Positions 4,107-36,507 of a DNA stretch of 64,000 bases are shown piece by piece. The DNA is from Clostridia bacterium (GTDB taxonomy: Bacteria > Bacillota > Clostridia > Oscillospirales > Acutalibacteraceae), in assembly GCA_017548045.1 (NCBI GenBank), contig JAFYNR010000022.1, positions 19,765 through 83,764 of the forward strand, written 5' to 3'. How positions within the stretch are numbered: position 1 is the stretch's first letter; every line of letters begins with the position of its first letter. The translations under genes and the position numbers were made by a program. The notes under the pieces are model-generated. The model had not been told where the DNA came from. It worked only from the letters and a program-made list of their open reading frames with translations, and ran no database searches.

Positions 4107-6014
4107 TTGAAAAACGTTTATTTCATTCAGGTAGGATTTGCATTTGACAAATCGGTTTACCTTCCCTATGCAACAGGCACCATAGTTGCATACTGCAAGG
4201 CACAGCCTGACATAGCGGAAGAATACACATTCCCGGAAATCATTTTCCGCAGGGATGATGTTGAGGCAATAGCCGACGGTATGGATAACCCCTATCTCGT
4301 TGCATTCTCAACCTACGTATGGAACGTTGAATTCAATAAAGTGCTTGCAAAGGCCGTCAAGGAAAAGTATCCCGAATGTATTGTTGTTTTCGGCGGTCAC
4401 AGTGTTTCTGACAGAATGGAGTTCCTTTCAAAGGATTATATTGATATACTTACTCTCGGGGAAGGTGAAGAAGTAACGGCAAATCTTCTCCGTGCCCTTC
4501 GCGACGGCACCGACCTTTCCGAATGTGCAGGCATTGCTTTCAGAGATACCGACGGCTGTAACATTCTTACCCCACCCTACTGCCCCGATAGCCTTGAGGA
4601 CTATCCCTCACCCTATCTCACGGGTGTTTTTGATTCAATCATTGAGAAAAATCCCGACGTGATGTTCGATACGATAATTGAAACCAACCGGGGCTGCCCG
4701 TACAACTGCGCATACTGCGACTGGAGCAACCATAAAAAGCTCCGTCTTTTCCCTATGGAAAAGGTCAAGGGTGAGCTTCGATGGCTTTCGGACCATAACA
4801 TAGAATATTGCTTCTGCGCCGATGCAAACTTCGGTATATTTGAGCGTGACGAAGAAATTGCACAGTACATTGTTGAGCTCAACAAGCAGACGGGCTTTCC
4901 CAAGGTATTCCGCCCCTGCTACGAAAAAAACAGTGCGGAGAGGGTTTTCAGAATTTCAAAGGCTCTGAATTCAAGAGGTCTTGACAAGGGCGCAACCATG
5001 GCTTATCAGACCCTCTGCGATGACGCGCTGAAAATCATCAACCGAAAGAATCTGACAATGGAGCATTTTTCGGGGCTTATGGCAGACTATAACAGAGCCA
5101 ATATCCCCACGTATTCTGAGCTCATTCTCGGCTTACCCGGCGAAACGGCAGAAAGCTTCTGTCAGGGCCTTTGCAAGCTTCTCAGGGCAGGTCAGCACAA
5201 TTCCATAAGCGTATATTACTGCGAATTGCTGCCCAACGCACCCATGTGCAACCCCGACTTTATGAAAGAGCACAAAATTGAGCCTATGAAGGTTCAGTTT
5301 AACCATATTCATTCCGCAAGCGGCAAAAAGGACGGCATACCCGAATATTCATACCTTGTCCGTTCCACAAGCACCCTGCCCCGTGACGGCTGGGTTTACG
5401 CAAATCTTTTTTCTATCTGCCTTCAATGCTTTCACAGCCTGGGCTTACTGCGCTATTTTGCCATTTACGCTTACTACGCGCTGAGCCTTGACTATTACGA
5501 TTTTTATTCCGGTCTTCTTGACTTCTGTCTTGAAAGCGAAGGCAGAATCGGCGGCCTTTTCAGAGAAATCAAGCGCAAGCTTGACGGCTCGCTGGAGGGT
5601 GACTGGAATCACAGTAACCCCGTTTTCGGCAACGTAACCTGGTTTTTTGAAGAAGGTCTTTTCCTTGAGCTTCTTTATGACTCAAAAGAATACGAAAAAA
5701 TTATTGACGGATACGTAAGAAGCCTGGGAATTGACGGAGACGTTTTTGCAGAGCTTTGCAAATTCCAGATAAACGCCGTGAAAAAGCCTTTTGAAAGCGG
5801 TAAGGCTTTTGAATGCGGCTATGATTTTGCTTCATACTTTTCAAACGTATCCGCAGAAAATCCCCTTCCCGAAAAGAAAAAGACCGCCTATATCTTTGAG
5901 GCGGCAAAGGTTTACGATAACTGGCCTGCATTTGCCAAAGAAACCGTATGGTACGGCAGACGCAAGGGCGCAACCCTCTATACAAACAACATCTCCGCCG
6001 TAAAATCGGTATAA
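4107..6014 (+). CDS. B12-binding-type radical SAM protein, paralogue 1
   Basis: A 635-residue protein with a cobalamin-binding-like N-terminal fold (VAFSTYVWN, VVFGGHSV, LTLGEGEEV at about 65-125) but no DxHxxG cobalt-ligand motif. The radical SAM domain has its 4Fe-4S cluster cysteines at C197, C201 and C204 (NRGCPYNCAYCDW). Further blocks shared with its paralogues are CADANFG, MAYQTL, ELILGLPGET and AGQHNS; a long C-terminal domain ends WYGRRKGATLYTN. Class B radical SAM enzymes often methylate or rearrange sugars and other unactivated carbons; the reaction here is unknown. The TTG at 4107 is chosen by AGGTG eight bases upstream and by alignment with the other copies. The upstream gene ends at 4104. 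Confidence 0.85.
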   Translation: MKNVYFIQVGFAFDKSVYLPYATGTIVAYCKAQPDIAEEYTFPEIIFRRDDVEAIADGMDNPYLVAFSTYVWNVEFNKVLAKAVKEKYPECIVVFGGHSVSDRMEFLSKDYIDILTLGEGEEVTANLLRALRDGTDLSECAGIAFRDTDGCNILTPPYCPDSLEDYPSPYLTGVFDSIIEKNPDVMFDTIIETNRGCPYNCAYCDWSNHKKLRLFPMEKVKGELRWLSDHNIEYCFCADANFGIFERDEEIAQYIVELNKQTGFPKVFRPCYEKNSAERVFRISKALNSRGLDKGATMAYQTLCDDALKIINRKNLTMEHFSGLMADYNRANIPTYSELILGLPGETAESFCQGLCKLLRAGQHNSISVYYCELLPNAPMCNPDFMKEHKIEPMKVQFNHIHSASGKKDGIPEYSYLVRSTSTLPRDGWVYANLFSICLQCFHSLGLLRYFAIYAYYALSLDYYDFYSGLLDFCLESEGRIGGLFREIKRKLDGSLEGDWNHSNPVFGNVTWFFEEGLFLELLYDSKEYEKIIDGYVRSLGIDGDVFAELCKFQINAVKKPFESGKAFECGYDFASYFSNVSAENPLPEKKKTAYIFEAAKVYDNWPAFAKETVWYGRRKGATLYTNNISAVKSV

Positions 6015-6036
6015 ACTTCGAAAGGCTCGTGATGAG

Positions 6037-7956
6037 TTGAAACGCAATTTCTACTTTTTCCAGGTTAATTATTCATACGGCAAAGCGGCACATCTGCCTT
6101 ACACCGCAGGTCAGCTTTCCGCATATGCTTTTGCAGACAAGGACGTTGCGGAAAATTATCACCTTGAAAGAATATTTTTTCTTCGCGACTCGGTTGACAG
6201 TGTAATGAGCAAAATCAGCAGCCCTTTCCTCGTTGCTTTTTCAACCTATATCTGGAACTGCAATTTCAACAAGGCGGTTGCAAAAAGAATAAAAGAAAAA
6301 TATCCCGACTGCAAAATCGTTTTCGGCGGTCACCACGTTGCACCCGGAGGCGGTATGCTCGAGGAATGCCCTTATATCGATTACCTTCTTCACGGCGAAG
6401 GCGAGATAACACTGCGCCGTCTTATGCGCTCGCTTATCGGGCTTGACGACGCCGAAAAAATACCCGGCATTTCTCTGAGAACAAAAAACGGTATCATCAC
6501 CAACCCGCAGATGATATCCGAGGAATGTGATTTCCCCTCACCTTACCTTAACGGATATTTTGATAAAATACTTGCAGAAAACCCCGACACGGATTTTATG
6601 GCGCTTATCGAAACCTCCCGAGGCTGCCCCAACTCCTGCGCATACTGCGACTGGAGCAATATGAAATCAAAAATCCGTAAATTCCCCATCGAAAGAGTTT
6701 ATGCGGAAATCGATTGGGTGAGCAGTAACAGAGTCTACGGTCTGGGCTCCGCCGATTCAAACTTCGGAATGTTCAGACGTGACCTTGAAATAACTGACAG
6801 AATAGTCGAGGCTCATAAGGCAACGGGCAGACCCGTAGGCTTTCAGACGTCCTATGCAAAAAACAGCACTAAAACCGTTTTTGACATCGGAATGAAGCTT
6901 GAAAAGAACGGGCTCAACAAAGGCATCACACTCTCATTTCAATCAATGAGCGATGAAGTGCTCAAAAATATAGGTAGAGAAAACATAAGCATCGAATATT
7001 ATTCGGAGCTTATGAGAATGTATAACGAAGCGGGCGTTGCCACGTACACGGAGCTTATTCTGGGGCTTCCCGGTGAAACCTACGAAACCCTTGTTGACGG
7101 AATTGACAGACTTCTTCAGCTCGGTCAGCATAACTCCATTTACATTCACAACTGCGAGTGGCTCCCCTGCTCAATTATGGGGCAGAAGGATTACGTTGAA
7201 AAATACGGCATAAGAACGTCGCATATTCCTCTTAATCAGCCCCACAGAGAGGCTGATGACAAGGATGAAATCCCCGAAGCCTCCGGCATAGTCACCGAAA
7301 CGTACTCTATGTCCCGTAATGACTGGAAAAAAATGAATCTGTTTTCCACTGTTGTTCAGTGTTATCATCATATGGGTATTCTGCAGTTTTTTGCAATTTT
7401 TCTTTACGAGCACGGAATTTGTTCCTACAAGGATTTCTATAATTCTCTGCTTGAATTTGCATTAAGCAAGCCGTCAACCGTAATCGGCAGAGCTTTCGCG
7501 GAAATTCAGCGCAAGCTGGATGACGTAATCAACGAAAAAGATGCACCCAATTGTGTTGATAAACGCTTCGGTAACATAATGTGGACACCCGAAGAATACG
7601 CCTTTCTCTATACCGTTTATGAATCGGAGCTTTTTTATGAAGAAATAAAAGATTTCCTTTCGGAATATTTTGAGGATGCGGAATTTTTCTGTGAGCTGCT
7701 TGAGTTTCAGAAAAAGATGCTCAAGCATCCCTTTGATGAGGATTTTACGTTTGTCTGTAATTATAATTTTGCAGATTATTTCAAGTCAATCATCAACAGC
7801 CGCAGTTCGTCACTGACAGAAGAAAAATGCACGGTTTCCGTAGAAGCAAAGCCCTTCCTCTCGTGGGAAGACTTTGCAAGGAAGGTTGCCTGGTACGGAA
7901 GAAAGGATTCAAGCTGTACTTACATAAACCGTGCAAAACAGGATGCTGTGCTGTAG
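6037..7956 (+). CDS. B12-binding-type radical SAM protein, paralogue 2
   Basis: A 639-residue paralogue of the preceding gene with the same architecture: N-terminus KRNFYFFQVNYSYG, YLPY-like LPYTAGQL, VFGGHHVAPGG, LLHGEGEIT, then cluster cysteines C197, C201 and C204 (SRGCPNSCAYCDW), SADSNFG, LSFQSM, ELILGLPGET and GQHNSI. The C-terminal domain closes with WYGRKDSSCTYIN. It starts at a TTG (6037); the nearby ATG at 6032 runs straight into a stop. The gap to the previous gene is 22 bases, so it belongs to the same transcript. Divergence from copies 1 and 3 is spread along the protein, as expected of an old duplication kept for separate substrates or positions; that reading is inference. Confidence 0.85.
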   Translation: MKRNFYFFQVNYSYGKAAHLPYTAGQLSAYAFADKDVAENYHLERIFFLRDSVDSVMSKISSPFLVAFSTYIWNCNFNKAVAKRIKEKYPDCKIVFGGHHVAPGGGMLEECPYIDYLLHGEGEITLRRLMRSLIGLDDAEKIPGISLRTKNGIITNPQMISEECDFPSPYLNGYFDKILAENPDTDFMALIETSRGCPNSCAYCDWSNMKSKIRKFPIERVYAEIDWVSSNRVYGLGSADSNFGMFRRDLEITDRIVEAHKATGRPVGFQTSYAKNSTKTVFDIGMKLEKNGLNKGITLSFQSMSDEVLKNIGRENISIEYYSELMRMYNEAGVATYTELILGLPGETYETLVDGIDRLLQLGQHNSIYIHNCEWLPCSIMGQKDYVEKYGIRTSHIPLNQPHREADDKDEIPEASGIVTETYSMSRNDWKKMNLFSTVVQCYHHMGILQFFAIFLYEHGICSYKDFYNSLLEFALSKPSTVIGRAFAEIQRKLDDVINEKDAPNCVDKRFGNIMWTPEEYAFLYTVYESELFYEEIKDFLSEYFEDAEFFCELLEFQKKMLKHPFDEDFTFVCNYNFADYFKSIINSRSSSLTEEKCTVSVEAKPFLSWEDFARKVAWYGRKDSSCTYINRAKQDAVL

Positions 7957-7994
7957 TATCAGACTCATTTTTATAACAAATCAGGAGAGAGAAA

Positions 7995-9920
7995 ATGAAA
8001 AACATCTATATGGTGCAGGCATCCAACACCTATTCGGGCCAGAATTTCAAGGCGGCATATCTGCCTTACGCCGTAGGTCTGTTGGTTGCAAATGCATTCA
8101 CAAATGAAACGGTTAAACTGAATTACGAATTCAAGCGGTTTATATTTATCCGCGAAAAAATTGAAAATGCATTGGCAAGCCTTGAAAACCCTGCGGTTGT
8201 GGGCTTTTCAAATTATGTCTGGAACACAAAATATAACCTTACCCTTGCAGAAAAAATCAAAGAAAAATATCCCGACTGCGTAATCGTTTTCGGCGGTCAC
8301 AACGTTGCAGGCGGCGAAAATTCATTTCTCGACAGATATGCTTTCATAGATTATCTTATCAGAGGCGAAGGCGAAGATGCTTTTTGCAGCCTTCTTTGTG
8401 AGCTTTGCAAAGAAAAGCCCGATTTTTCATCGGTGAGCAATCTTTCATACCGCCGTGACGGCAAAGCGATCCATAATCCCGTTGAAACGCTTACCCGCAT
8501 CGACTACCCCTCGCCCTACCTTACGGGTCTTTTCGACAGCATATATGAGGAAAATCCCGATATGCAGCTTGATGCAATACTTGAAACCAGCCGCGGCTGT
8601 CCCAACTCCTGCGCCTACTGCGACTGGGGCTGCAACAATCAGAAAATCAAGCGTTTCCCGATTGAAAGAATTTATGCCGAAATTGATTGGCTTGCAGAGC
8701 ATAAAACAAAATTCATCTGGGGTGCGGATGCAAACTTCGGAGCATTTGAGCGCGACCTTGACATTGTTGATTATTTCGTAGGCGTAAGAGAAAAAACGGG
8801 CTACCCTGAAAGGCTGAGAATCAACTATGCAAAGGCAAATCCTCTCAGAGTTTTTGAAATCAACAAGCAGCTTGAACAGCATAATCTGACCAAGCAAGGC
8901 GCTACGATTTCATTCCAGAGCCTTAACCCCGAAACCCTTGAAAATATCGGCAGAAGGAATATGAATCTGGAATCCTTCAGCGAGCTTCTTTCACTTTACA
9001 GAAAAGAGGGTATCACGGTTTATTCAGAGCTTATTGTGGGTCTTCCCGGCGAAACCTACGAAAGCTTCTGCAACGGTATCGGAAAGCTCCTTGCCGCAGG
9101 TCAGCACAGACTTATCACAACCTATATGTGTGTGCTTCTTCCCAACTCCCCCATGGCAGACCCCGACTATGTGGAAAAGCACGGCATTATTACGGTTGAA
9201 GTGCCGTTCCTTGTGGCTCACACAAATGACGAGGATGACGTTGTTGAAACCACGTCATACATCATCGGCACCGATACGATGAGCCCTGAGGATTGGATAA
9301 AGGCAAATATTTTCACCTGCTTTGAAGAATCCTACCACCATTTCGGAATTCTCAAATTCATTGCAATTTATCTTTTCACAAAGTTTAACATACCCTATGA
9401 AAAATTCTATAACGACGTTATAAATTCCTCACTTGAAAATAAAAATTCGGTTGCGTACTCCGCATACAGAAAACTTTACGATTACTATAAATCCATAACC
9501 GAAAGCGAGCCTATCTCACTTTATCAGAACGATATTTTCGGAGAACTTTCCTGGAGCAACAACCTTCTCGCATTCCTTGATACAATATACAGAATAGACA
9601 CCTTCTATGACGAAATCAGGCCCCTGCTTCAGGGCTACGGTGTTCCCGACAGCATTATTGATGAGCTTATCCGCTATCAGAAAACCGTACTGAAATTGCC
9701 GGGAAGGAACAATTTCAGCGAGGATTTCAGCTGTAACTGGCACCATTATTTCAAGGGTGTTATTGAAGACTGTCCCGTTGAGCTTGAAGAAAAGCCCAAC
9801 ACGGTGAAGGTAATGAATAAATCCGTACCCTATAACTGGAAGGAATGGGCGCTCGAATCCGTATGGTTCAATAAAAACGGAATCACCTTCAATCCCGTGG
9901 TAAAAGTTGAATACAAATAA
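7995..9920 (+). CDS. B12-binding-type radical SAM protein, paralogue 3
   Basis: A 641-residue member of the same family. Cluster cysteines are C202, C206 and C209 (SRGCPNSCAYCDWG); the family blocks YLPYAVG, VFGGHNVAGG, IRGEGED, GADANFG, ISFQSL, ELIVGLPGET and AGQHR are present, and the C-terminus ends WFNKNGITFNP. The GQHNS block of the other copies is GQHRL here, a substitution next to what may be the substrate pocket. It has a clear AGGAGAG site before its ATG and sits 38 bases after copy 2. A strong bidirectional hairpin follows, so this is the last gene of the operon. Confidence 0.85.
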   Translation: MKNIYMVQASNTYSGQNFKAAYLPYAVGLLVANAFTNETVKLNYEFKRFIFIREKIENALASLENPAVVGFSNYVWNTKYNLTLAEKIKEKYPDCVIVFGGHNVAGGENSFLDRYAFIDYLIRGEGEDAFCSLLCELCKEKPDFSSVSNLSYRRDGKAIHNPVETLTRIDYPSPYLTGLFDSIYEENPDMQLDAILETSRGCPNSCAYCDWGCNNQKIKRFPIERIYAEIDWLAEHKTKFIWGADANFGAFERDLDIVDYFVGVREKTGYPERLRINYAKANPLRVFEINKQLEQHNLTKQGATISFQSLNPETLENIGRRNMNLESFSELLSLYRKEGITVYSELIVGLPGETYESFCNGIGKLLAAGQHRLITTYMCVLLPNSPMADPDYVEKHGIITVEVPFLVAHTNDEDDVVETTSYIIGTDTMSPEDWIKANIFTCFEESYHHFGILKFIAIYLFTKFNIPYEKFYNDVINSSLENKNSVAYSAYRKLYDYYKSITESEPISLYQNDIFGELSWSNNLLAFLDTIYRIDTFYDEIRPLLQGYGVPDSIIDELIRYQKTVLKLPGRNNFSEDFSCNWHHYFKGVIEDCPVELEEKPNTVKVMNKSVPYNWKEWALESVWFNKNGITFNPVVKVEYK

Positions 9921-9923
9921 AGA

Positions 9924-9951
9924 AGAGAGCTTTGGTTACCCAAAGCTCTCT
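9924..9951. terminator. Bidirectional terminator
   Basis: An 11-bp GC-containing stem (GAGAGCTTTGG / CCAAAGCTCTC) with loop TTAC, flanked by A-rich and T-rich sequence, between convergent genes. Confidence 0.8.
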
Positions 9952-9957
9952 CTTCGT

Positions 9958-10818
9958 TTATTTCTTAAATTTTGAACAAACGGATTTCAATGCGTTTTCG
10001 CTCAGTTCTTCAAGAAGAAGACCGTTCTGACATATAACAGCAAGCATCATAATCATCGATGCGCCTGCAGGGAAGGCGTAGGAACTGTATATAAACAGAG
10101 GCACAACCGAAAATACCGCCGAAATAATATATCCTGCCGTTTCCGTAACGGGTCTTTTCTTTTTAATCGAAACAACTGCAAGAATTACGAAAACTGCTAT
10201 CGAAAACACAATGGCAACCGAATCCCATAACTCCGTAACAAGAGAATGAACGGTAAACGAATAGCGTCTGTACCAGAAGGTATAAACCGCCGCACCGATT
10301 ATCACCGCTTGCGAAACCGCAACAAGAATTTTCTTCCACAGTGCGGATTTTTTAAGCTCTTCCGAAAGATATATGAGTGAAACACCTGATGCTGCCGAAA
10401 GAAACATAACCGCCGTGCCGCTGTATTCTGCCGCAGCAACCACGCTGAGCACTGCCGAAACAGGCACAAGCACCGCCTTTTGCGAGCATATGAGAATCAA
10501 GGGCATAAAGACCAGCATCCGGATTGTATCGCTGGACAGATTTTGGTGCGATACTATTACGCCAAGCGTCATAAACGTTGCCGCCGTCATAAGTATTCCC
10601 TGTGCCGAAAACAGCTTATTTCCCTTTTCGTTCAGCGTCAGTGCAACAAAAGCTGCAAAAGCAAGCGATGCCGCAATCTGAGTAACAATATCCTTCCCGG
10701 AATCCCACTCTTTACCGATACCCCAAAAAGCAATTTTTGCAAAAACGGTAAAGAATAAAACCAGAAAGGTTTTGATTTTTGTTTTCATATCCCATTGAAC
10801 ATTTTTTATCATTGTCAT
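9958..10818 (-). CDS. Polytopic membrane protein of unknown function
   Basis: A 286-residue protein not recognised. It is almost wholly hydrophobic, with about eight or nine likely membrane spans beginning at residue 15 (TFLVLFFTVFAKIAF) and charged linkers such as SEELKKSALWKK and SIKKKRPVTE that would face the cytoplasm. No catalytic motif is evident. It stands between the radical SAM operon (convergent) and the SDR gene (divergent), so a part in export or assembly of the same glycan is possible but only by position. AGGGAG lies close before the first ATG; a start at the second Met (10812) is equally possible. Confidence 0.65.
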   Translation of the reverse strand: MTMIKNVQWDMKTKIKTFLVLFFTVFAKIAFWGIGKEWDSGKDIVTQIAASLAFAAFVALTLNEKGNKLFSAQGILMTAATFMTLGVIVSHQNLSSDTIRMLVFMPLILICSQKAVLVPVSAVLSVVAAAEYSGTAVMFLSAASGVSLIYLSEELKKSALWKKILVAVSQAVIIGAAVYTFWYRRYSFTVHSLVTELWDSVAIVFSIAVFVILAVVSIKKKRPVTETAGYIISAVFSVVPLFIYSSYAFPAGASMIMMLAVICQNGLLLEELSENALKSVCSKFKK

Positions 10819-10862
10819 CGGGCTCCCTGTTTATAATTTCAATGATTAAAAATCATTTATAT

Positions 10863-10891
10863 TTGACTTAATTGAAAAAGTGTGATAAAGT
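10863..10891 (+). promoter_or_regulatory. Promoter of the SDR gene
   Basis: TTGACT (10863-10868), 17-base spacer, TAAAGT (10886-10891) preceded by TG-A, an extended -10. The gene starts 34 bases downstream. Confidence 0.5.
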
Positions 10892-10925
10892 ATCTGTACT
10901 TTAGAATATACGGAAGTGACTCATT

Positions 10926-11861
10926 ATGCTTAACATTCTCGTTACCGGCGGTGCAGGCTACATAGGCTCCGTGCTGGTCCCCCTGCTCCTCTCAAAAGGC
11001 TGCCGCGTAACCGTACTCGATAACCTTTTTTACAATCAGAATCCTCTGCTTGAATGCTGTGCAAACCCTGATTTCACTATGATTAATGCAGATGCACGCA
11101 ACGAAAATGCAGTTAAAGAAGCTATGAAGGGTAAGGATTATATAATTCCCCTTGCCGCACTTGCAGGCTTCCCTATCTGTGACAAGGAAGCGTGTTCGGC
11201 ATACTCCATAAACTACGACGCAATCAAAATGATTCTTCGTTTGAGAGAAAAGGGTCAGCGCATCATTTTCCCCTGCACAAACAGCGGATACGGTTTGGGT
11301 GAAGGTGAAAAATTCTGCACGGAAAATTCGCCCATAAAGCCCATTTCTATATACGGAAAAAGCAAGGTTGAAGCAGAAGCCGCCGTGCTCAGCGAAAGCG
11401 GTACAACCGCATTCCGCTTTGCCACTCTTTTCGGCGCTTCTCCCAGAATGAGAACCGACCTGCTTGTAAACGATTTTGTATACCGTGCCGTTTTTGACCG
11501 CACACTGGTTGTTTTTGAAGGCAATTTCAAAAGAAATTATCTTCACGTCAGAGATGCGGCAAATGCATTTTGGTTTGCCATTGAAAACTTTGAAAGAATG
11601 GAAGGCGGCACCCATAACTGCGGTCTGTCCGACTCCAATCTGTCAAAAATAGAACTTTGTGAAAAAATCAAGGCGATTATTCCAAAATTCACCTATATAG
11701 AAGCTCCCGTAGGCGAAGACCCCGACAAGCGGAATTACATAGTCTCAAACGAAAAGCTTGAAAGCCTCGGCTGGTCGCCCGTATACTCCCTTGATGACGG
11801 AATTATCGAGCTTACCAAAGCCTATCAGATAATCAAAAACAACCGCTTCTCTAATATATAA
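10926..11861 (+). CDS. NAD-dependent sugar epimerase/dehydratase (extended SDR)
   Basis: A 311-residue extended short-chain dehydrogenase. The NAD site is at residues 3-14 (ILVTGGAGYIGS), the acidic residue after the second strand is in VLDNL, and the active-site Tyr and Lys are in SIYGKSKVEAE (YxxxK, about 141-145). The upstream Ser/Thr is in PCTNSGYG. Such enzymes epimerise, dehydrate or reduce nucleotide-activated sugars. Here the likely substrate is GDP-heptose or a related sugar from the adjoining locus, which is inference from position. It has its own extended -10 promoter and a strong terminator, so it is a single-gene unit; GGAAGTGA precedes the ATG. Confidence 0.85.
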   Translation: MLNILVTGGAGYIGSVLVPLLLSKGCRVTVLDNLFYNQNPLLECCANPDFTMINADARNENAVKEAMKGKDYIIPLAALAGFPICDKEACSAYSINYDAIKMILRLREKGQRIIFPCTNSGYGLGEGEKFCTENSPIKPISIYGKSKVEAEAAVLSESGTTAFRFATLFGASPRMRTDLLVNDFVYRAVFDRTLVVFEGNFKRNYLHVRDAANAFWFAIENFERMEGGTHNCGLSDSNLSKIELCEKIKAIIPKFTYIEAPVGEDPDKRNYIVSNEKLESLGWSPVYSLDDGIIELTKAYQIIKNNRFSNI

Positions 11862-11869
11862 TCTCTGTT

Positions 11870-11901
11870 GAGGATGTGTTCTGAACACATCCTCTTTTTT
11901 T
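11870..11901 (+). terminator. Intrinsic terminator of the SDR gene
   Basis: GAGGATGTG / CACATCCTC stem with a seven-base loop, followed by seven T residues; a textbook rho-independent terminator that touches the stop codon of the convergent gene. Confidence 0.85.
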
Positions 11902-13123
11902 ATGCCGAAAGTCCGTAAGGCTGCATCGTAGCGTACACAATAAAGATTATTGCAAGCAGTACGGTTTTGTCTTTGAAATATGCACCCAACTGCTGTGCCG
12001 TCTTTTTGAAGGGCTCATCCTTCGTAACAACCATAAGCATTGCCATGGCAAACTGAGTTATGATTGCAGACTGGAACCAACGGATAAAGTCCTGTGCAAC
12101 AAGCATTCCCAGAGGAATGGTAAATACAGAAAGCATAAAGCACAGGTAAACAAATCTTCTGACCTTGCTTTCCGTATTCTTCATACACATCACCCATACC
12201 GCCCAGAATGCGGCAATAATTGCTCCGCCGAATATGCTAAGCGATATTGTATGAGTAAGTGAAATATCTGCAAGGTTTACTCCTGCCATCAGCTTCATAC
12301 GCTCCAGAGCAGATGCACCGGCAACCATTTCAGGCGTAACACCCGTGCCTTCGGGAGGAATATCAAGCAGATAGAAGGCTATATTGTCAATACCGAAATC
12401 CGTGTAGGTATATCCGCCTCTGAATCTGAGAGCTTCAACAAGCTGTTCATAAGTCATTGCTGCGGTGCCTGCACCCTTAACGGAAACCCAGAGAGTTGCA
12501 ACAACGGCAACTGCACAGGAAATAATAAACACCAGGGAAGTTGCAATCTTTTTCTCTTTTGTAATTGCAAGATAAAATGCCGCAAGCGCAATAAGCGGAA
12601 AATAGGTTATTGCAAAACCGTTGTGTATGAATACTCCCACCGCGCAAAGCACGGGAACAAGCCACTGAAGATATTTATTGCCAAGGCAAAGCAAGGCAAC
12701 AAACGCAACAACGAACATCCAGATATCAAGAATTCCGAGATAAACCGAAAAATTTGAGAAGGTAAACATTCCCGTAACCGCAAATAAAGCCAGCACAAGG
12801 GTCTGCACCTTTATTTCACTGTCGGAGCATTTTATTACTTTTCCTATACCAACCGCAGATAAAAGCAGTGTAAACCCAAGCACAATCATGCAGAAGCCTG
12901 CAATCCACTCCGGGGTAGGATCGGGATTAAAAAGCTTCACGATTGAGCCCACAAGAAGTCTTGATGTCTTACCCATCGAATAGTCGATAAGGTAATAAAG
13001 CCTTGTATACTCACCTACGCTGAAATCGGGATACAGCTTATATATCGCCTGAACTGCAAGCACAATAAAAATACAAAGCTCGTATTTTATTGAAGAAAAT
13101 ATTTTGGCAGCCTTTGTTTTCAT
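11900..13123 (-). CDS. Polytopic membrane protein of unknown function
   Basis: A 407-residue protein with roughly ten to twelve predicted membrane spans, starting at about residue 12 (LCIFIVLAVQAIY). The first outside loop is polar and Tyr-rich (SVGEYTRLYYLIDYSMGKTSRLL), and a later loop contains RFRGGYTYTDFGID. This arrangement, early polar loop then many spans, recalls GT-C type glycosyltransferases and EpsG-like polymerases, but no diagnostic motif was found. The ATG at 13123 is chosen because AAGGTGG lies eight bases upstream. It begins 24 bases after the ABC ATPase gene, with no terminator between, so it is probably transcribed with the amino-acid transporter and not with the SDR gene it faces. 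Confidence 0.65.
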   Translation of the reverse strand: MKTKAAKIFSSIKYELCIFIVLAVQAIYKLYPDFSVGEYTRLYYLIDYSMGKTSRLLVGSIVKLFNPDPTPEWIAGFCMIVLGFTLLLSAVGIGKVIKCSDSEIKVQTLVLALFAVTGMFTFSNFSVYLGILDIWMFVVAFVALLCLGNKYLQWLVPVLCAVGVFIHNGFAITYFPLIALAAFYLAITKEKKIATSLVFIISCAVAVVATLWVSVKGAGTAAMTYEQLVEALRFRGGYTYTDFGIDNIAFYLLDIPPEGTGVTPEMVAGASALERMKLMAGVNLADISLTHTISLSIFGGAIIAAFWAVWVMCMKNTESKVRRFVYLCFMLSVFTIPLGMLVAQDFIRWFQSAIITQFAMAMLMVVTKDEPFKKTAQQLGAYFKDKTVLLAIIFIVYATMQPYGLSA

Positions 13124-13147
13124 CAGCCAAACCACCTTAACTAAAAA

Positions 13148-13942: not shown

Positions 13943-14633
13943 TCTTCTTCAAGCTCCTTTCCATAAATTTGATAAGTACCGTGATAAGGCATACGATAAC
14001 AATATAAATTATCGCCATTGCAAGATACGGAACCATAAATTCATAGCTGTTTGAACCGATATAGTTGAACGCAACATAAAGGTCAGCAGCACCGATAAAT
14101 GAAACGATAGAGGTCTCCTTGATAAGAACAATAAATTCATTGCCCAGAGTGGGAAGAATGTTCTTGACAGCCTGAGGAATAACAATTTTCATCATTGTTG
14201 TTGAAAAACTGAGACCAACAGACCTGCCGCCTTCGGTCTGACCGTAATCGACAGACTGAATACCGCTTCGCATAATTTCGGATATGTATGCACCGCTGTT
14301 AAGCCCGAAAACCGCAATGGCGACGCTGACGGAAGGAAGGTTTATTCCCATAAGAGGCAAGGCAACGTAATAGAAAAGCAGAAGCTGAACAACCATAGGA
14401 GTTCCTCTGAAGAAGCCCACGTAAAATGTGCATACTGAGTTGAGAACTCTGGGAAGACGCTTATACTTGGGTATAACCCTTACGGTTGCAATAAGCGTAC
14501 CGATAACAATACCGATAACAAGACCGAGAATTGCGATTTTAAGCGTATTTTCAAGACCTTCAATAACCTTTACATAGCCTTTGTAGTCAATGAGAATCTC
14601 GATAAATTTATTTATCTTGGCTTCAAAATTCAT
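13926..14633 (-). CDS. Polar amino-acid ABC transporter, permease
   Basis: A 235-residue permease of the HisM/GlnP family with about five membrane spans, the first at residues 29-50 ([20 protein letters not shown]). The EAA-loop that contacts the ATPase is visible as [20 protein letters not shown] near residues 125-145. As only one permease gene is present it should work as a homodimer. The gene lies between the binding protein and ATPase genes and overlaps the latter. Confidence 0.9.
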
Positions 14634-26041: not shown

Positions 26042-26045
26042 CACT

Positions 26046-27374: not shown

Positions 27375-27407
27375 ACACCTATCCGATTCAAAGAAGGTAA
27401 ATCTGAA

Positions 27408-28763: not shown

Positions 28764-28781
28764 TTCATCCGGAGGAACAGT

Positions 28782-30233: not shown

Positions 30234-30240
30234 TAACGAT

Positions 30241-30280
30241 AAGCCTTGGATTTCGTCATTGAAACCCAAGGCTTTTTTAT
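30241..30280 (+). terminator. Intrinsic terminator after trkH
   Basis: AAGCCTTGG / CCAAGGCTT stem extended by TTTC / GAAA, followed by a T run. Confidence 0.85.
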
Positions 30281-30290
30281 TTTATATCCG

Positions 30291-30857
30291 TTATTTTATT
30301 TTTATTATTTTATCGCCCTTTACGAGATATGCGTTTTGCGCAAGGTCAATTATGGGTTGATCGTTGAGAGAATCCGTATAGAAATTCTCAATAACCGCAT
30401 CGGGATAGTATTTTTTGAACATTTTTACCTTGTTCTCACGAAAGCAGAAATTTTTAATCGCAAAATTTTCACGGTCTGTTTCGGTGGAAACAATATTCTT
30501 TATTCCCGTTCTTCTTCCCATTTCTTCAAGAACAACGTCAAACCCTGCCGAAAGAATAACGTCATCGTCTTTTCTTATTTCCGCATAAAAAGGCTTGATT
30601 TTACCGATATTCTTATCCCAGAATTTCTTTATATCCCCTTCAAGGTCGGCAACACCGCGGCAATAGCTTTCAACAAGAGTACCGTATTCATTCAGCGCCT
30701 CGTTAATTGTGATTTTACGCGCCTTGTATTTCAGCAAAGCAACAATAACCTTCGGTAAATACAAAAGTAATTTCGGGTCACGCTTCATATAGTAAAGAAA
30801 AAAATCTATTGCGGATTCGCCTTTGTATATCGTGTTGTCAAAATCATAAACGTTCAT
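30291..30857 (-). CDS. HAD-superfamily phosphatase (HAD-IB, SerB-like)
   Basis: A 188-residue HAD hydrolase. Motif I is VYDFDNTIYKGES (nucleophile Asp at residue 5), motif II falls around ILSAGFDVVLEE (Ser), motif III around NKVKMFKKYY (Lys) and motif IV around FYTDSLNDQPII (acidic pair). The helical cap after motif I (FFLYYMKRDPKLLLYLP) is of the subfamily IB type shared with phosphoserine phosphatases. The substrate is not readable. AGGTGATAAT precedes the ATG. It is convergent with the trkH operon and divergent from the MATE gene. Confidence 0.8.
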   Translation of the reverse strand: MNVYDFDNTIYKGESAIDFFLYYMKRDPKLLLYLPKVIVALLKYKARKITINEALNEYGTLVESYCRGVADLEGDIKKFWDKNIGKIKPFYAEIRKDDDVILSAGFDVVLEEMGRRTGIKNIVSTETDRENFAIKNFCFRENKVKMFKKYYPDAVIENFYTDSLNDQPIIDLAQNAYLVKGDKIIKIK

Positions 30858-30906
30858 ATTATCACCTACGTGTATTATACTTGATTATAATCAATTTTTC
30901 AACAAG

Positions 30907-30935
30907 TTGAAATTATTAAAAACAGGTGATATAAT
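30907..30935 (+). promoter_or_regulatory. Promoter of the MATE gene
   Basis: TTGAAA (30907-30912), 17-base spacer, TATAAT (30930-30935) preceded by TG-A (extended -10). Confidence 0.7.
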
Positions 30936-30965
30936 TAGTTCAAATCAATCACGGAGAAAACGAGA

Positions 30966-32321
30966 ATGAAAATCAAAGACAGAGCATTTTACAAAGTATT
31001 TTTCACAATGACACTCACAATGGCGGTGCAGAATCTGATCGTATTCGGTGTTAACCTTGCAGATTCCGTTATGATGGGTGCATACAGCGAAACCGCACTC
31101 AGCGGAGTGGGAATCTGCAACAACATTCAGTTCTTTCTGAATATGGCGGCTTCGGGCATTGCCTCCGGTATGACGGTTATTGCCTCTCAGTATTGGGGTC
31201 AAAAAGAAAAAAAGCCCATTTACAGGGTATCGGCAGTTGCAATGTGGATAAGCATTGTTTTTTCTATGCTGATTTTCGGCTTTGCCGCCCTTGCCCCTGA
31301 AACCCTCATAAGACTCTTCACGGATAAAGAGGCGGTTATTGAGCAGGCTGTGCTTTACCTGGATATTATAAAATATACCTATTTATTATTTGCACTGACA
31401 ACAGTAATGCTTGCAATTCTGCGAAGCGTTGAAACCGTCAGAATAGGATTCTACGTTTCGCTTTCATCCTTTGCAGTCAATATTCTTCTCAATTATATGC
31501 TTATTTACGGCAAATTCGGCGCACCCGAAATGGGAATAAGAGGTGCGGCCCTTGCAACCCTTGTTTCAAGGGCGATTGAACTTGCGGTTGTTGTAATATA
31601 CATATTGTTTGTTGACAAAAAGCTGAAAATGAAGCTTCGCGACCTGTTTATAACAGATGCTCAGATGCTGAAAGATTATTTCAAAACAGGGCTTCCTCTT
31701 ATGATGAGCAGTGTATCCTGGGGCATTGCAATGAGCATTCAGGGAGCAATCATCGGCAGACTTATCGAAAGCGCTATTGCGGCAAACAGCATTGCCACCA
31801 CAATTTTTCAGGTTGCAACGGTTATCTGCTACGCTTCAAGCAATGTAGCCTGCGTGCTTATAGGCAAAACCATAGGCGAAAACAAATCTCTTGATATTAT
31901 CAAACGCCGAAGCAAAATGCTTCAGCTTATCTTCCTGGGTATAGGTATTGTATCAAGCGCAATTCTCCTGCTGACAAAAAATCTTATCATTGATTTTTAC
32001 AATGCAACGCCGCAGACCGTTGACATCACAAATCAGTTTATATGGGTGCTTTGTGTTACGATTATCGGCACGGCTTATGAAGCCCCCAGCCTTTGCGGAA
32101 TTGTTTCGGGCGGCGGCGATACGTCCTTCGTGCTAAAAAATGATATAATCTTTATGTGGCTTATCGTTCTGCCAATGAGCATACTCAGCGCCTTTGTTTT
32201 CAAGTTCCCCGTTGTTGTTACTTTTGCCTGCCTCAAGGCAGATCAGGTGCTGAAATGTGCGGTTGCAGTGGTGAAGGTCAATAAATTCAACTGGATAAAA
32301 AAAGTTACAAAATCAACATAA
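30966..32321 (+). CDS. MATE-family efflux transporter
   Basis: A 451-residue protein with twelve predicted membrane helices in two homologous halves, of the MATE/MOP superfamily. Typical family segments: VNLADSVMMGAYSETALSGVG in the first half and GLPLMMSSVSWGIAMSIQGA opening the second, with a GSGGGDT-like SGGGDTSFVLKNDI near the end. It probably exports a drug or metabolite by cation antiport. GGAGAAAACGAG precedes the ATG. Monocistronic, between its own promoter and a bidirectional terminator. Confidence 0.88.
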   Translation: MKIKDRAFYKVFFTMTLTMAVQNLIVFGVNLADSVMMGAYSETALSGVGICNNIQFFLNMAASGIASGMTVIASQYWGQKEKKPIYRVSAVAMWISIVFSMLIFGFAALAPETLIRLFTDKEAVIEQAVLYLDIIKYTYLLFALTTVMLAILRSVETVRIGFYVSLSSFAVNILLNYMLIYGKFGAPEMGIRGAALATLVSRAIELAVVVIYILFVDKKLKMKLRDLFITDAQMLKDYFKTGLPLMMSSVSWGIAMSIQGAIIGRLIESAIAANSIATTIFQVATVICYASSNVACVLIGKTIGENKSLDIIKRRSKMLQLIFLGIGIVSSAILLLTKNLIIDFYNATPQTVDITNQFIWVLCVTIIGTAYEAPSLCGIVSGGGDTSFVLKNDIIFMWLIVLPMSILSAFVFKFPVVVTFACLKADQVLKCAVAVVKVNKFNWIKKVTKST

Positions 32322-32322
32322 A

Positions 32323-32361
32323 AAACGGCTTGTGCGGAACATTAATCCGTACAAGCCGTTT
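32323..32361. terminator. Bidirectional terminator
   Basis: An 11-bp outer stem (AAACGGCTTGT / ACAAGCCGTTT) plus a five-pair inner stem with one G-U pair, between convergent genes. Confidence 0.85.
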
Positions 32362-32363
32362 CA

Positions 32364-33836
32364 TTATTTAAGGCCGTATTTTTTCAGTATTTTTCTGTGC
32401 ATATTGGAATAATAAAAAACCGTCAAAAACTGCTTTGCAGATACATATGTACCGTAAAAAAAGCCTTTTATTCCGTGCCTGAAAATTCTGTTTATTGCAT
32501 CCCCTGCCATCTTCTTGATGATACCGAAGGAATCATCCTTGACAGAATCCTTGCCTGTGAATGCCTTCCACTGAAAATAATGGTGTATAACCTTAAGATC
32601 CTTATCGGGCACAGCAGAAAGATTCACTATTATCTTATCGGTAGCCCTTTGCTCAACCTTAAGCGCAACATCCTTTATTGTGTCGGGATAACTGAATTTA
32701 CCCTCTGCCCTTGCACGGTCATAAATCTCCGAATTCGGAAGCGGAGTAAGAATATTCATAACAACAAGGCTTGCACCCAATCCGTTGGCAAAGGTTACCG
32801 TTCTTTTTGTTTCTTCAGGTGTTTCGTCTGGAAATCCGATTATGAAAGATGCCTGAACGGTTATGCCTGCCTTTTCGCACCAGCCTATTGTTTCTTTGGC
32901 GGAGGAAAGGTCGATATTCTTCTTTATGCTCTTTATTCTTTCGGGGTCGCCGCTTTCGATACCGAAAAGAATCCAGCGGCAGCCTGCCTTATACATAAGC
33001 TTTATATCATCTTCGTTCAGCACGCCCAAGCGCATCTGACAGCCCCATATGAGCTTGTAATTGCGTTCAATAAGCATTTCACAAAGCTTTGTGCGAAGTT
33101 CTCGTTTAGGCAGAAACAGTTCATCGGAAAAATAAATTCCGTTAACTCCGCAGCCGTAAAGATAATCTATATCGCGGATTATCTGTTCGGGATTTCTGCA
33201 CCTGTTTCTGTTCTGATGAAACTGCTGGTTTGAACAGAAGGTGCACCGTGCAGGGCATCCCTTTGAAGCGTGAAGATACACCATTTTATCACAACCGAAG
33301 AATGATGAAAAATATTTTTCAACCTTCACCATACTCCAATCAATATCGGGAAAAAGCGAAATATCCGCCACATCTCTGGGCGCGGTATATTTAATTTTTC
33401 CGTTTTCGGTATAAGCAAGACCCTGAACAGCAGAAACATCTGAGCCGCACTCAAGCGTATTCACAAGCTCAAGCCAGGTGATTTCACCCTCTCCAAGAGT
33501 TATGAAATCGGGCTTCGCTTCTCTGAGAATAAGTTCGGGCATTGCAGTTGCCGCCTGACCGCCCCATACAACGGTTATCCCCATACCCTTTATTTTTTCG
33601 GTAAGCCTTTTTGCTTCTATGCTGCCAAGAAATGACATTGCGGTAATGCCCACAACATCCGGCTTGAATTCTTTTATGCTTGCCTCAACGTCGTTTGCCT
33701 CTGCAAGACATTCAACAAGCTTCACTTCGTGGCCGTAATGCTTCAGATAGCTTGCAATTGAAAGAAGCCCGAGGGGCAGAGAGGGCACCCTTATAAAAAC
33801 GGGCATCGGAGGATTTATAAGCATTATCTTCAACAT
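32364..33836 (-). CDS. B12-binding domain radical SAM enzyme
   Basis: A 490-residue class B radical SAM protein, of a different branch from the 640-residue paralogues. The N-terminal cobalamin-type domain begins MLINPPMPV and contains GLLSIASYLKHYGHEVKLVE, PDVVGITAMSF, VVWGGQAATAMPE and ITLGEGE. Cluster cysteines are C194, C198 and C201 (SKGCPARCTFCSN), followed by YFSDELF, FGIESGD and GFPDETPEE. The layout matches HpnJ/BchE-like enzymes that modify lipids, sugars or tetrapyrroles. The ATG at 33836 has AGGTG six bases upstream. It is the last gene of a three-gene operon with a GT2 and a 641-residue radical SAM protein, pointing to glycan or glycolipid chemistry. Confidence 0.85.
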   Translation of the reverse strand: MLKIMLINPPMPVFIRVPSLPLGLLSIASYLKHYGHEVKLVECLAEANDVEASIKEFKPDVVGITAMSFLGSIEAKRLTEKIKGMGITVVWGGQAATAMPELILREAKPDFITLGEGEITWLELVNTLECGSDVSAVQGLAYTENGKIKYTAPRDVADISLFPDIDWSMVKVEKYFSSFFGCDKMVYLHASKGCPARCTFCSNQQFHQNRNRCRNPEQIIRDIDYLYGCGVNGIYFSDELFLPKRELRTKLCEMLIERNYKLIWGCQMRLGVLNEDDIKLMYKAGCRWILFGIESGDPERIKSIKKNIDLSSAKETIGWCEKAGITVQASFIIGFPDETPEETKRTVTFANGLGASLVVMNILTPLPNSEIYDRARAEGKFSYPDTIKDVALKVEQRATDKIIVNLSAVPDKDLKVIHHYFQWKAFTGKDSVKDDSFGIIKKMAGDAINRIFRHGIKGFFYGTYVSAKQFLTVFYYSNMHRKILKKYGLK

Positions 33837-33850
33837 CGTCACCACCTTTT

Positions 33851-34579
33851 TTATTTGAGTAAATCCTGCTTTTTCATAAATCTGATATGAAGCGCGGTTG
33901 AAAAATATTTTGCGGTCTGTCTGAATGAATTACTTGATTTGCCCTGCTTTCTGCCGTAGCAGTTTGTGGGTATTTCGACAAATCTGCAGCCAAGCCTCAA
34001 GGGCTTGAGAACAAGCTCAAGCAAAATCGGGAAGCCCATACTCTCCCATTTTATACTGCGGTAAATTTCCGTAGGCACAATCTGATTGGGATTTGTAAAA
34101 TCAGTCATTTTTCTTCCGAACAAAACCGTCAGAAACTTCTGACCCAGATAATTCATAACATAACGTGATCTGCTGTAATTTATGAATCTGCAGCCGGGCA
34201 GCCAGCGGGAGGTTTTAACTATAATATCGCCGTTTTCTTTCGCTTTTTCTATCATCTGCGGAACACATTCAAGGTCAAGGGCGTTATCCGACGCAACGAT
34301 CATACAGTGAGAACCCTTTGCAATATCAAAAAGCTCTACGAGAGCACCGATTCCCCTTTTCTTCTGATTGGCAACAACTATTTTACCCTTTTCATCTTCT
34401 TGTTTGATTCGGTTTACAACCGCTTCACATTCAGAAGTTATATGGGGAGCTTTGAGAATGATTATTTCTTTGATATCATCGGGTTTGCACAGGCGGAGTA
34501 TTTCGCTGACTGCATTTTCGAGAGACTCCGTTTCATCAACGGCACCCATCAGAATTGATACGTTTTTAAACTCTGCCAT
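33851..34579 (-). CDS. Glycosyltransferase family 2
   Basis: A 242-residue GT-A glycosyltransferase resembling the dolichyl-phosphate mannose synthase/undecaprenyl-type branch. It shows VSILMGAVDETESLENAV, IIILKAPHI, the glycine-turn RGIGALVELFDIAKGS and, where a DxD is expected, VASDNALD. A C-terminal basic stretch (RKQGKSSNSFRQTAKYF) can contact lipid phosphate; no membrane span is present. It would transfer a sugar from a nucleotide donor to a lipid or glycan. The start is two bases after the radical SAM stop, with GGAG inside the end of that gene, so translation is coupled. Confidence 0.82.
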   Translation of the reverse strand: MAEFKNVSILMGAVDETESLENAVSEILRLCKPDDIKEIIILKAPHITSECEAVVNRIKQEDEKGKIVVANQKKRGIGALVELFDIAKGSHCMIVASDNALDLECVPQMIEKAKENGDIIVKTSRWLPGCRFINYSRSRYVMNYLGQKFLTVLFGRKMTDFTNPNQIVPTEIYRSIKWESMGFPILLELVLKPLRLGCRFVEIPTNCYGRKQGKSSNSFRQTAKYFSTALHIRFMKKQDLLK

Positions 34580-34581
34580 AA

Positions 34582-36507
34582 TCAGTTCTCCGTATATTCA
34601 AGCGTTATCTTCTCCCTTGGGTTTGTGCAAAGGGTTGCGCTTCTGCGTTTGCCGAACCAGATGATTTCTTTGGCATATTCATCCCAGCAGTCAATCTCTT
34701 TCTCAAGAACAATATTCAATCTGTTTTTCTTCTTTTCAAGAGGCTGACGGTTATTTCCATATACATTCTCAAAATAATTGTAGAAATCATAATCGCTTTC
34801 AACCGTAACGGTTCTCTGACCGGGCAGACGGATTATGCTTTTCTGATAATTGTAAAGATTTTCAAAAATATTTTCTTCTATGCCGAGAGAGAGAAGAAAA
34901 TCATATATTTCATCCCAGAAGGTTTCAAAGTGATAGGCAAGGTCAAGAAAAACGCCTTCCTCAAAATACCAGCCTACGGTGCTGAACAGGTCATTCTGAT
35001 AATACCATTCGGCTTTAACGGTATCATCCTGCTTCTCTCTTATCGACTCAAAAAGAGAATAGATATACTTTGTATCATCCGAGAAGATGTAATCATAAAG
35101 CCTGTTATAAAATTCGTAATAGGGCATATCAAGCTCATACCTTGTATAAACGGCAAAGCAACGAAGCATACCCAGATGATGAAAGCCCTGAAGCACGGCG
35201 GAAAATACGTTTGCCTTGACCCAATCCGCCTTGCTCATGGTTGAGGTTTCGACAATGGCATCGTAATATTCCTGAATTCCCTGAAAATTAGGCGAATAGT
35301 GCAAGCCCAGGAAAGGAACTCTTTCCCACTTTATGCCGAATTTTTCTTTGTATTCGGGCTGTGCAACGGGTGCGTTACAGTAAACCTGGCAGGTATAAAC
35401 CGCCATGGAGTTATGCTGACCCGCATCAAGAAGATAGCAGAGTCCGTTACAGAAACTTTCATAGGTTTCGCATGGCAGACCGAGTATAAATTCCGTGTAG
35501 GTGGGGATTCCCTCTGCGGAATACCTGGAATTGAGCTTTGTATAGTATTCAACGTCAAGATTTTTTCTGCCGATATTTTCAAGCGTTTCAGGGTTAAGGG
35601 ACTGGTAAGCAAGAGTTACTCCCTTATCAATTCCGCTGTTGTTGAGAAGCTTGCCGATTTCAAAAACATTTTCGTCACTGTTTTTTGCATAGCAGGGCTT
35701 GAAAATTCTGGGATAGCCCGTTTTTTTATTTGTATCAACAACATACTGTGCAATTTCAAGATCTCTCTGAGAAATACCGAAATTGGCATCTGCACAGTAA
35801 CAGTAGGGTATTTTATGTGCAGATATCCACTCAATCTCCGCTTTTACCCTTTCCATAGGAATATATCGGAGTTTTTCGGTGTAACACCAGTTACAGAAAG
35901 CACAGGAATAAGGGCAGCCTCTGTTGGTTTCAAGTATTGCGTGAAATTCCACGTTGGGGAATGCCCGGAAAAAGCCGTCAAAATAACCGTTGAGATAAGG
36001 TGACGGCATATCGTCAAGAGGCACGCAGAAGCTTTCCTCCGGAGTTGTGATAATCTCTCCGTTCAGACGAAGAGACGTGTTGGTAAGTGATGAAAAATCA
36101 CCGCTGTCAACCGCTTTGATGAGGTTTGCAAAGCTCTTTTCACCTTCACCGTGAATAAGGGCATCCACATACGGACATTCTTCAAGAACGGAAGTGTTAA
36201 AGGGTATGTTATGACCTCCGAAAACAATGAAGCAATCGGGATATTTTTCCTTTATTTTCTTTGCAAGCACCTTGTTGTATTCCATATTCCACACAAGGCA
36301 GGAAAAGCCGAATATAAAGGGATTTTCAATACGTGCCAAAACGTCTTCGGGCTTTTCGCGCATAAAAAACAGCTCACCCAGACGAAATCTGCTTTTAATT
36401 TCTTCGTCATTCCACGCATATGCGGCAATACAGCCCGCACCGTATGGCAGGTAAGCAAAATCACAGTATGTTACGTTAAATTGGGAAAGATAAATATTCC
36501 GCTTCAT
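34582..36507 (-). CDS. B12-binding-type radical SAM protein, paralogue 4
   Basis: A 641-residue copy of the family found in tandem at 4107-9920. Shared blocks in order: KRNIYLSQFNVTYCDFAYLPYGAG, VFGGHNIPF, IHGEGE, cluster cysteines C198, C202 and C205 (NRGCPYSCAFCNW), CADANFG, LAYQSL, EFILGLPCET, AGQHNSM and the C-terminal WFGKRRSATLCTN. Differences are CNW instead of CDW after the cluster and Cys for Gly in GLPGET. It opens an operon with a GT2 and another radical SAM enzyme, about 25 kb from the other copies and on the other strand. AGGAG lies 13 bases before the ATG, a long spacing. By position it acts in glycan synthesis; the reaction is unknown. Confidence 0.85.
   Translation of the reverse strand: MKRNIYLSQFNVTYCDFAYLPYGAGCIAAYAWNDEEIKSRFRLGELFFMREKPEDVLARIENPFIFGFSCLVWNMEYNKVLAKKIKEKYPDCFIVFGGHNIPFNTSVLEECPYVDALIHGEGEKSFANLIKAVDSGDFSSLTNTSLRLNGEIITTPEESFCVPLDDMPSPYLNGYFDGFFRAFPNVEFHAILETNRGCPYSCAFCNWCYTEKLRYIPMERVKAEIEWISAHKIPYCYCADANFGISQRDLEIAQYVVDTNKKTGYPRIFKPCYAKNSDENVFEIGKLLNNSGIDKGVTLAYQSLNPETLENIGRKNLDVEYYTKLNSRYSAEGIPTYTEFILGLPCETYESFCNGLCYLLDAGQHNSMAVYTCQVYCNAPVAQPEYKEKFGIKWERVPFLGLHYSPNFQGIQEYYDAIVETSTMSKADWVKANVFSAVLQGFHHLGMLRCFAVYTRYELDMPYYEFYNRLYDYIFSDDTKYIYSLFESIREKQDDTVKAEWYYQNDLFSTVGWYFEEGVFLDLAYHFETFWDEIYDFLLSLGIEENIFENLYNYQKSIIRLPGQRTVTVESDYDFYNYFENVYGNNRQPLEKKKNRLNIVLEKEIDCWDEYAKEIIWFGKRRSATLCTNPREKITLEYTEN

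Follow-up and report, generated by a model that had tools for sequence, protein, structure and literature searches.

A family of B12-type radical SAM proteins

The stretch of DNA analysed here, referred to as the window, consists of 64,000 nucleotides (bases 19765-83764 of contig C13) from the draft genome of a Clostridia bacterium, which spans 2.38 Mb in 68 contigs and is 85.7% complete. At this locus lie four intact members of a family of vitamin B12 (cobalamin)-binding radical S-adenosylmethionine (SAM) proteins, which we call K and consider together with the sugar-nucleotide genes that accompany them. The core enzyme, K1 (group A), occupies 4107-6014 on the forward strand and comprises 635 aa from a TTG codon at 4107, or 637 aa if translation begins at 4101; the start at 4107 agrees with a relative (L026) that begins at the same residue. 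K2 (6037-7956, group B, 639 aa) and K3 (7995-9920, group C, 641 aa) follow on the same strand, and K4 (34582-36507, group D, 641 aa) is encoded on the reverse strand. An initial annotation of this DNA had described four paralogues of about 640 residues, three of them in tandem. All four are intact where it placed them, but the genome holds six, because a further tandem pair lies on contig C15 (L009:7534-9462 and 9462-11381).

The window paralogues align over their whole length, with 37-45% identity to K1, and each keeps the CxxxCxxC motif in the YCDW/FCNW context noted initially (CPYNCAYCDW in K1, CPNSCAYCDW in K2 and K3, CPYSCAFCNW in K4). In a profile built from all six K, the members themselves score 1005-1057 bits and TokK, which was not part of the profile, scores 485 bits, which indicates that the resemblance is not due to chance. 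TokK, the asparenomycin carbapenem C6 methylase (7kdx), matched this profile with an E value of 2.1e-144 across residues 19-609 of 681, and CysS, a cystobactamid methylase (9n1b), with 3.7e-77; K2 as a single sequence matched TokK with 7.5e-91. The common C-terminal domain of the initial annotation is borne out by the end-to-end alignment, and the C-terminal third of K matches that of TokK, as judged by sequence as far as TokK residue 609. Pfam finds a B12-binding domain followed by a Radical_SAM domain in all four window K, with both scores of K4 just below the curated cut-offs. Among NCBIfam families KedN5 (NF033712) ranks best for all four (3.9e-68 to 8.1e-78), yet they reach only 230-262 bits against a cut-off of 700, and therefore we do not file K in that subfamily.

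Residues that contact the cofactors are also conserved. We defined full-length K as 600-720 aa, which applied to 254 of 300 K stretches and left 207 once duplicates were removed. The three cluster cysteines and the tryptophan under the cobalt are kept in all 207, and the tryptophan two residues past the last cysteine in 203. TokK W76 and CysS W75 occupy the lower cobalt face, and TokK Trp 215 contacts both SAM and cobalamin (PMC9692996). TokK is described as transferring three methyl groups one after the other, and CysS as many as three (PMC12846815). Taken together, these comparisons suggest that K are likely class 1 cobalamin-dependent radical SAM methylases of the TokK/CysS type, with methyl transfer as the predicted reaction. 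The B12-type (class B) radical SAM identity first proposed is thus upheld by the TokK match, the domains and the retained cofactor residues. Of the three reactions offered with it, methylation is favoured, and epimerisation and rearrangement are less likely because the closest characterised relatives, TokK and CysS, are carbon methylases.

The six copies fall into six clades, each supported at 99-100 except that of K2 (77). Among 16 genomes that carry the heptose genes described below, 71 of 74 K belong to these clades; the remaining three (from G004, G008 and G010) lie outside, next to the K2 clade, and were not counted. The 71 fill 68 genome-by-clade cells, of which three are filled twice, giving three extra copies compared with a mean of 18.9 after shuffling (none of 20000 shuffles as low). 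The underlying table does not include every K of every genome, and its zeros are no proof of absence. Recent tandem amplification is ruled out, as five of the six copies are 63-93% identical to their three nearest relatives in other genomes and 37-44% identical to one another. For the remaining copy (L009_7534), the nearest relative is 88% identical and identity then drops to 46%. Because the groups are nearly single-copy and not products of recent amplification, we conclude from these comparisons that the K copies are old and probably specialised.

Two observations concern the integrity of individual genes. Single in-frame stop codons interrupt K matches in G004:C30, G440:C78 and G436:C65, for which decay, assembly error or on-off switching are possible, and L077:6112-9984 is one open frame of 1290 aa that scores 1541 bits with the K profile and resembles two fused K proteins. 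Decay of the family as a whole is ruled out by the cluster cysteines, which every distinct full-length K retains.

Sugar-nucleotide genes and their association with K

Ahead of K1 lie four genes on the forward strand. The run is headed by a D-2-hydroxyacid dehydrogenase-like gene (441..1388; Pfam 2-Hacid_dh_C, 1.8e-57, below the NCBIfam cut-offs), whose family has 18 members in the compared loci. It is followed by a HddA-like GHMP kinase of the D-glycero-D-manno-heptose 7-phosphate kinase type (1399..2376; NF049969, 2.3e-37, 129 bits against a cut-off of 600) and by a small cupin that may be a sugar epimerase or isomerase (2463..2849; Polysacc_synt_C, 1.8e-10; Cupin_2, 1.8e-8), the nearest solved relative of which is the cupin part of Cap5F (1.1e-5). 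The fourth gene (2833..4104) fuses a HddC-like guanylyltransferase (NF049965, 1.4e-53, 182 bits against 300) to a GmhB-like 7-phosphatase (TIGR00213, 3.9e-41, 141 bits against 150), with solved heptose-pathway relatives for the two halves (6jq8/5xhw and 3l8e/2gmw). The cupin and HddC-GmhB frames overlap as called, and HddC-GmhB stops two bases ahead of the K1 start at 4107. A terminator-like hairpin of 12 pairs (9924..9951) stands directly 3' of K3, in a pattern scan that returned 24 sites against a shuffled mean of 16.5. By this arrangement the stretch 441-9920 resembles a single operon. A second transcript could begin within it at a promoter-like match (2425-2452), one of 31 such matches compared with 20.4 on average after shuffling. 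Another part of the genome encodes a phosphoheptose-isomerase-like protein (L105:1441-2064).

Beyond the hairpin, a membrane protein with about eight hydrophobic segments by hydropathy and no Pfam or NCBIfam match (9958..10818, reverse strand) precedes a Cj1427-like short-chain dehydrogenase (10926..11861, forward strand), predicted to be a GDP-heptose C4-dehydrogenase. The former occurs in four loci including the window, either between K1 and the dehydrogenase or beside K. The latter matches PDB entry 6vo6 over residues 3-310 with an E value of 6.3e-106, the next best structure being at 3e-22; this entry we take to be Cj1427 of Campylobacter jejuni, and GalE is the best NCBIfam family, below its cut-off. 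Next is F3x (11900..13135, reverse strand), a polytopic membrane protein that we propose to be a membrane glycosyltransferase or ligase. For 41 of 46 members, 8-11 hydrophobic segments are predicted, and among 36 members scanned with Pfam the matches are all weak: PMT_2 in one (7e-4), DUF6057 in three (best 4e-6) and TgpA_N in three. One of these 36 frames also matches CotH kinase (4.9e-32).

K4 has a different setting. Next to it on the reverse strand is GT2 (33851..34579), a Dpm1-like glycosyltransferase with no membrane segment (Pfam Glycos_transf_2, 1e-10), which matches dolichol monophosphate mannose synthase 5mlz weakly over residues 7-225 (1.9e-5) and ArnC at 0.25-0.33. Adjacent on that strand is R2 (32364..33845, 493 aa), a second type of B12-binding radical SAM protein with a CPARCTFC motif (Pfam B12-binding, 3.3e-20; Radical_SAM, 4.5e-19). 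Its best NCBIfam family is BchE (8.2e-47, below cut-off), and its nearest solved relative is 6fd2 (apramycin oxidoreductase 4, 5.1e-21), which we take to be AprD4 of the apramycin pathway. In the compared loci the R2 family often stands in the order R2-GT2-R2 with K, and its members are mostly near 490 and near 610 aa long.

We compared these neighbourhoods with those of relatives. One hundred and sixty stretches encoded a relative of K1, and the best 80 of the 160 were used, giving 73 loci; among these 80 the top identity was 84%. The closest relatives come from metagenome-assembled genomes labelled Clostridia, Oscillospiraceae, Ruminococcaceae, Clostridiaceae, Clostridiales or Bacillota, many with ruminant-host names. 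Genes were called in 104 records, which include some duplicates and eight unrelated radical SAM loci, and were clustered by similarity. Recurring among them were GT2 (42 records), HddC-GmhB (37), the cupin (35), F3x (34), short-chain dehydrogenases of a mixed family (30) and the HddA-like kinase (29). A frequent frame runs from the 2-hydroxyacid dehydrogenase through HddA, the cupin, HddC-GmhB, K1 and a variable stretch to the dehydrogenase, F3x and an ABC transporter, and other loci are ordered otherwise. The variable stretch holds two further K in the window and none in L012 and L022. When the 207 K were cut into 46 clusters, all 16 members of the K1 cluster lay directly 3' of HddC-GmhB, and GT2 was the next gene in 8 of 11 members of the K3 cluster, the window not among them. 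Beside the C15 pair (L009:12131-19902) lie a gene resembling 2-isopropylmalate synthase, a TIM-barrel/AMP-binding fusion, a class IV aminotransferase gene and the genes of an oxoacid oxidoreductase with two subunits.

The association extends across whole genomes. Our genus sample contained 45 genomes, including the source genome, and was searched for K, F3x and the Cj1427-like gene at maximum E values of 1e-60, 1e-15 and 1e-60, respectively. K is present in 27, with three to eight matches each when fragments at contig ends are counted. F3x has the same distribution, present in all 27 and absent from the other 18 (Fisher p 5.8e-13, shared ancestry ignored), and in 23 genomes it is no more than 10.5 kb from a K. 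HddC-GmhB accompanies K in 22 of the 27 genomes. None of the 18 K-less genomes has it; four of them give a 31-32% identical match to the HddC half alone. In 21 of the 22 genomes HddC-GmhB and a K are at most 3 kb apart, and in one they are on different contigs. The Cj1427-like gene is present in the same 22 genomes and again absent from the 18. In a class sample of 391 genomes, with up to three best candidates scored per genome, K was found in two, the source genome and G342, which belongs to another family, and in an earlier sample it was found in none of 15 genomes of the order's other families. The initial annotation had placed K in the company of sugar-nucleotide genes, and this link holds across the genus; the contrary outcome, neighbourhoods in other genomes devoid of a sugar-gene link, was looked for and not found.

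Heptose, whose nucleotide-synthesis genes the initial annotation had noted alongside K, is not obligatory. Five of the 27 K-bearing genomes (G013, G432, G433, G443 and G446) lack heptose genes, which rules out a link with heptose alone. Inside the K-F3x cluster, these five and G342 instead carry a long FKP-type gene (fucokinase/GDP-fucose pyrophosphorylase). In four FKP-type genes (L140, L132, L136 and L139), Pfam finds a pyrophosphorylase domain and a GHMP kinase. Identity to the L140 gene is 88% for G432 (cut by the contig end), 81% for G443 and 44% for G433. Unlinked FKP-type genes, 34-37% identical to that of L140 in the kinase part, occur in one of 22 heptose-type and five of 18 K-less genomes.

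The type of sugar supply is also reflected in K itself. A tree of 97 K, drawn from 22 genomes and built with FastTree and with a quick IQ-TREE run, requires 3 changes of sugar type, compared with 20.7 for shuffled labels (none of 500 as low), and 20 of 23 K from FKP-type genomes lie in separate clades. Two of the three K of G342 group with the FKP-type members of the genus with good support, and the third is a long branch of unsure placement. Since related genomes make labels cluster, the match between K clade and sugar type supports recognition of the sugar by K and does not prove it.

A proposed sugar-modification system

This bacterium has six K, and in related genomes K accompany genes for the synthesis and transfer of GDP-sugars, so that it probably builds a sugar with extra carbon branches. 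Homology and gene association together make a sugar substrate and methylation by K likely, and on balance we favour the view that the locus is the core of a system that introduces several distinct C-methylations into a residue derived from a GDP-sugar. By homology, methylation would be the reaction, and GDP-heptose the starting sugar in this genome. In such a system the Cj1427-like enzyme would oxidise C4 of the sugar, and the cupin would perhaps epimerise neighbouring carbons. Each K, belonging to a different old group, would then use SAM, cobalamin and a 5'-deoxyadenosyl radical to place a methyl on unactivated carbons of the sugar or its glycan. The small GT2 would put the sugar onto polyprenyl phosphate, and F3x would hand it on outside the membrane. 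Suggested less strongly than the reaction and the starting sugar are the order of these steps, a single sugar as the target of all K, the functions assigned to GT2 and F3x, and a surface glycan as the product.

Several results weigh against this interpretation. Although HddA, HddC and GmhB are the top specific NCBIfam families for the heptose-supply genes, all score below curated cut-offs, which only general models such as TIGR01656 exceed; the phosphoheptose-isomerase-like gene likewise reaches 151 bits against a cut-off of 276, with DiaA at 120. The F3x profile returned one chance match among solved structures (E 0.12) and hence neither a PDB relative nor a fold. Two of the six K, the C15 pair, have none of the cluster's sugar families in 20 kb around them, and a scan of eight neighbours, which left four larger open reading frames aside, found no sugar-nucleotide genes; K4 sits 22 kb from the heptose genes. 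In G006 and G014 the HddC-GmhB match covers the HddC half alone, compared with both halves in 20 of the 22 genomes. The FKP-type gene of G446 is only 37% identical to that of L140, no nearer than the unlinked FKP of K-less genomes, and is therefore distinguished by its place and not by its sequence. Group F, a heptose-type clade, includes three of the 23 K from FKP-type genomes; this kind of K is therefore common to both, and sugar type does not fix every K. Finally, genomes of one genus share ancestry, and the co-occurrences thus do not amount to that many independent events; the K cluster could travel as a block, and absences of genes rest on draft genomes.

That several K act serially on one sugar is plausible, and the nearly single-copy groups fit serial action. 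They also fit one enzyme per residue of a longer glycan. Under the latter arrangement the K would act in parallel, each methylating its own residue or acceptor within one long glycan, with K and GT2 forming a module per residue. K and GT2 do often adjoin in the compared loci, as in the K3 clade, K4 stands with GT2 and R2 far from the heptose operon, and group F is common to both sugar types. Several loci (L013, L015 and L025), however, have one GT2 but at least four K when counted at locus level, and we regard parallel action as rather unlikely.

Alternatively, the target of K could be a secreted small molecule or lipid, methylated outside its sugar portion, for which the sugar genes would supply only a glycosyl decoration. 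The nearest characterised relatives, TokK and CysS of antibiotic pathways, use a carbapenam and an aromatic pantetheine-linked substrate, and the 2-isopropylmalate-synthase-like, AMP-binding, aminotransferase and oxidoreductase genes beside the C15 pair would suit such a product. Against this, a scan of 30 window proteins between 441 and 40875 found no polyketide, peptide-synthetase or beta-lactam genes, and K clade tracks the type of sugar supply, which makes a non-sugar target improbable. Still less probable is a different sugar reaction, such as epimerisation, dehydration or rearrangement, catalysed with the same cofactors by all K or by some of them. The AprD4-like structure nearest to R2 (a radical SAM diol-dehydratase in NCBIfam) hints that other radical chemistry may be in the cluster, and four of 207 K lack the tryptophan that bridges SAM and cobalamin, but in NCBIfam R2 matches BchE, HpnJ and PhpK better than AprD4, all below cut-off, K match methylases over nearly their full length and the lower-face tryptophan of TokK and CysS is invariant.

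Returning to C-methylation of a GDP-sugar-derived residue, we advance only tentatively the broader idea that gut Clostridia make a surface sugar from GDP-heptose, or from a GDP-fucose-like precursor in sister lineages, on which three to eight mostly non-redundant K would install several carbon branches, with a repertoire that depends on the species and a second B12 radical SAM type that adds steps. This would be an undescribed form of glycan diversification. If so, sets of three to eight K coupled to the supply of GDP-sugars and to a membrane protein would constitute a new route to branched-chain sugars in commensals, and a structure that gut Clostridia make would be tied directly to vitamin B12. 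The exchange of heptose genes for an FKP-type gene offers a natural experiment on how enzymes and sugars are paired, and the K enzymes could yield catalysts for the C-methylation of carbohydrates.

Related pathways and further observations

TokK resembles K in its domain order, CxxxCxxC motif, tryptophan under the cobalt, tryptophan after the last cysteine and, by sequence, C-terminal domain. In contrast to the six divergent K genes with their sugar-nucleotide genes, it is one enzyme that performs three methylations in an antibiotic pathway. The CysS/KedN5 family is alike in that KedN5 is the best NCBIfam family for K and CysS methylates iteratively, but K falls far short of the KedN5 cut-off, and the pathways encoded nearby are not known to be related.

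Gentamicin offers a known precedent for the radical C-methylation of sugars: GenD1 (C-4'') and GenK (C-6') are cobalamin radical SAM enzymes that methylate sugar carbons (PMC12689558). By that description, GenK and GenD1 resemble K in the chemistry and in the use of two such enzymes on one molecule, whereas their substrate is an aminoglycoside. To our knowledge, they have no GDP-sugar, Dpm1-like or membrane transferase partners. The capsular heptose pathway of C. jejuni (heptose 7-phosphate kinase, phosphatase, guanosyltransferase, Cj1427, Cj1430 and C4-reductases) shares with the window the predicted supply of GDP-heptose and a putative close relative of Cj1427. The available accounts of that pathway, however, describe no radical SAM enzyme and attribute its diversity to epimerases, dehydratases and reductases. 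Our literature search found no paper that connects radical SAM methylases to GDP-heptose or to surface glycans; as most subscription journals lay outside the search, this is weak evidence of novelty.

One further radical SAM gene of the window (48332-50188, 618 aa) was considered as part of the system and ruled out, as it belongs to the B12-binding radical SAM family TIGR03960 (960 bits against a cut-off of 462). No Rfam family reached its gathering score in the window, and the sole cobalamin riboswitch (RF00174) found in the genome lies on a contig without K (G000:C60:29296-29437). Among the compared loci, a pair of genes resembling an FAD amine oxidase and a 2Fe-2S/FAD reductase recurs beside or near K in L014, L067, L074 and L081. 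A DegT/DnrJ-type aminotransferase family (one member scanned) occurs near K in L033, L036, L075 and L083, which suggests that amino-sugar versions of the cluster exist.

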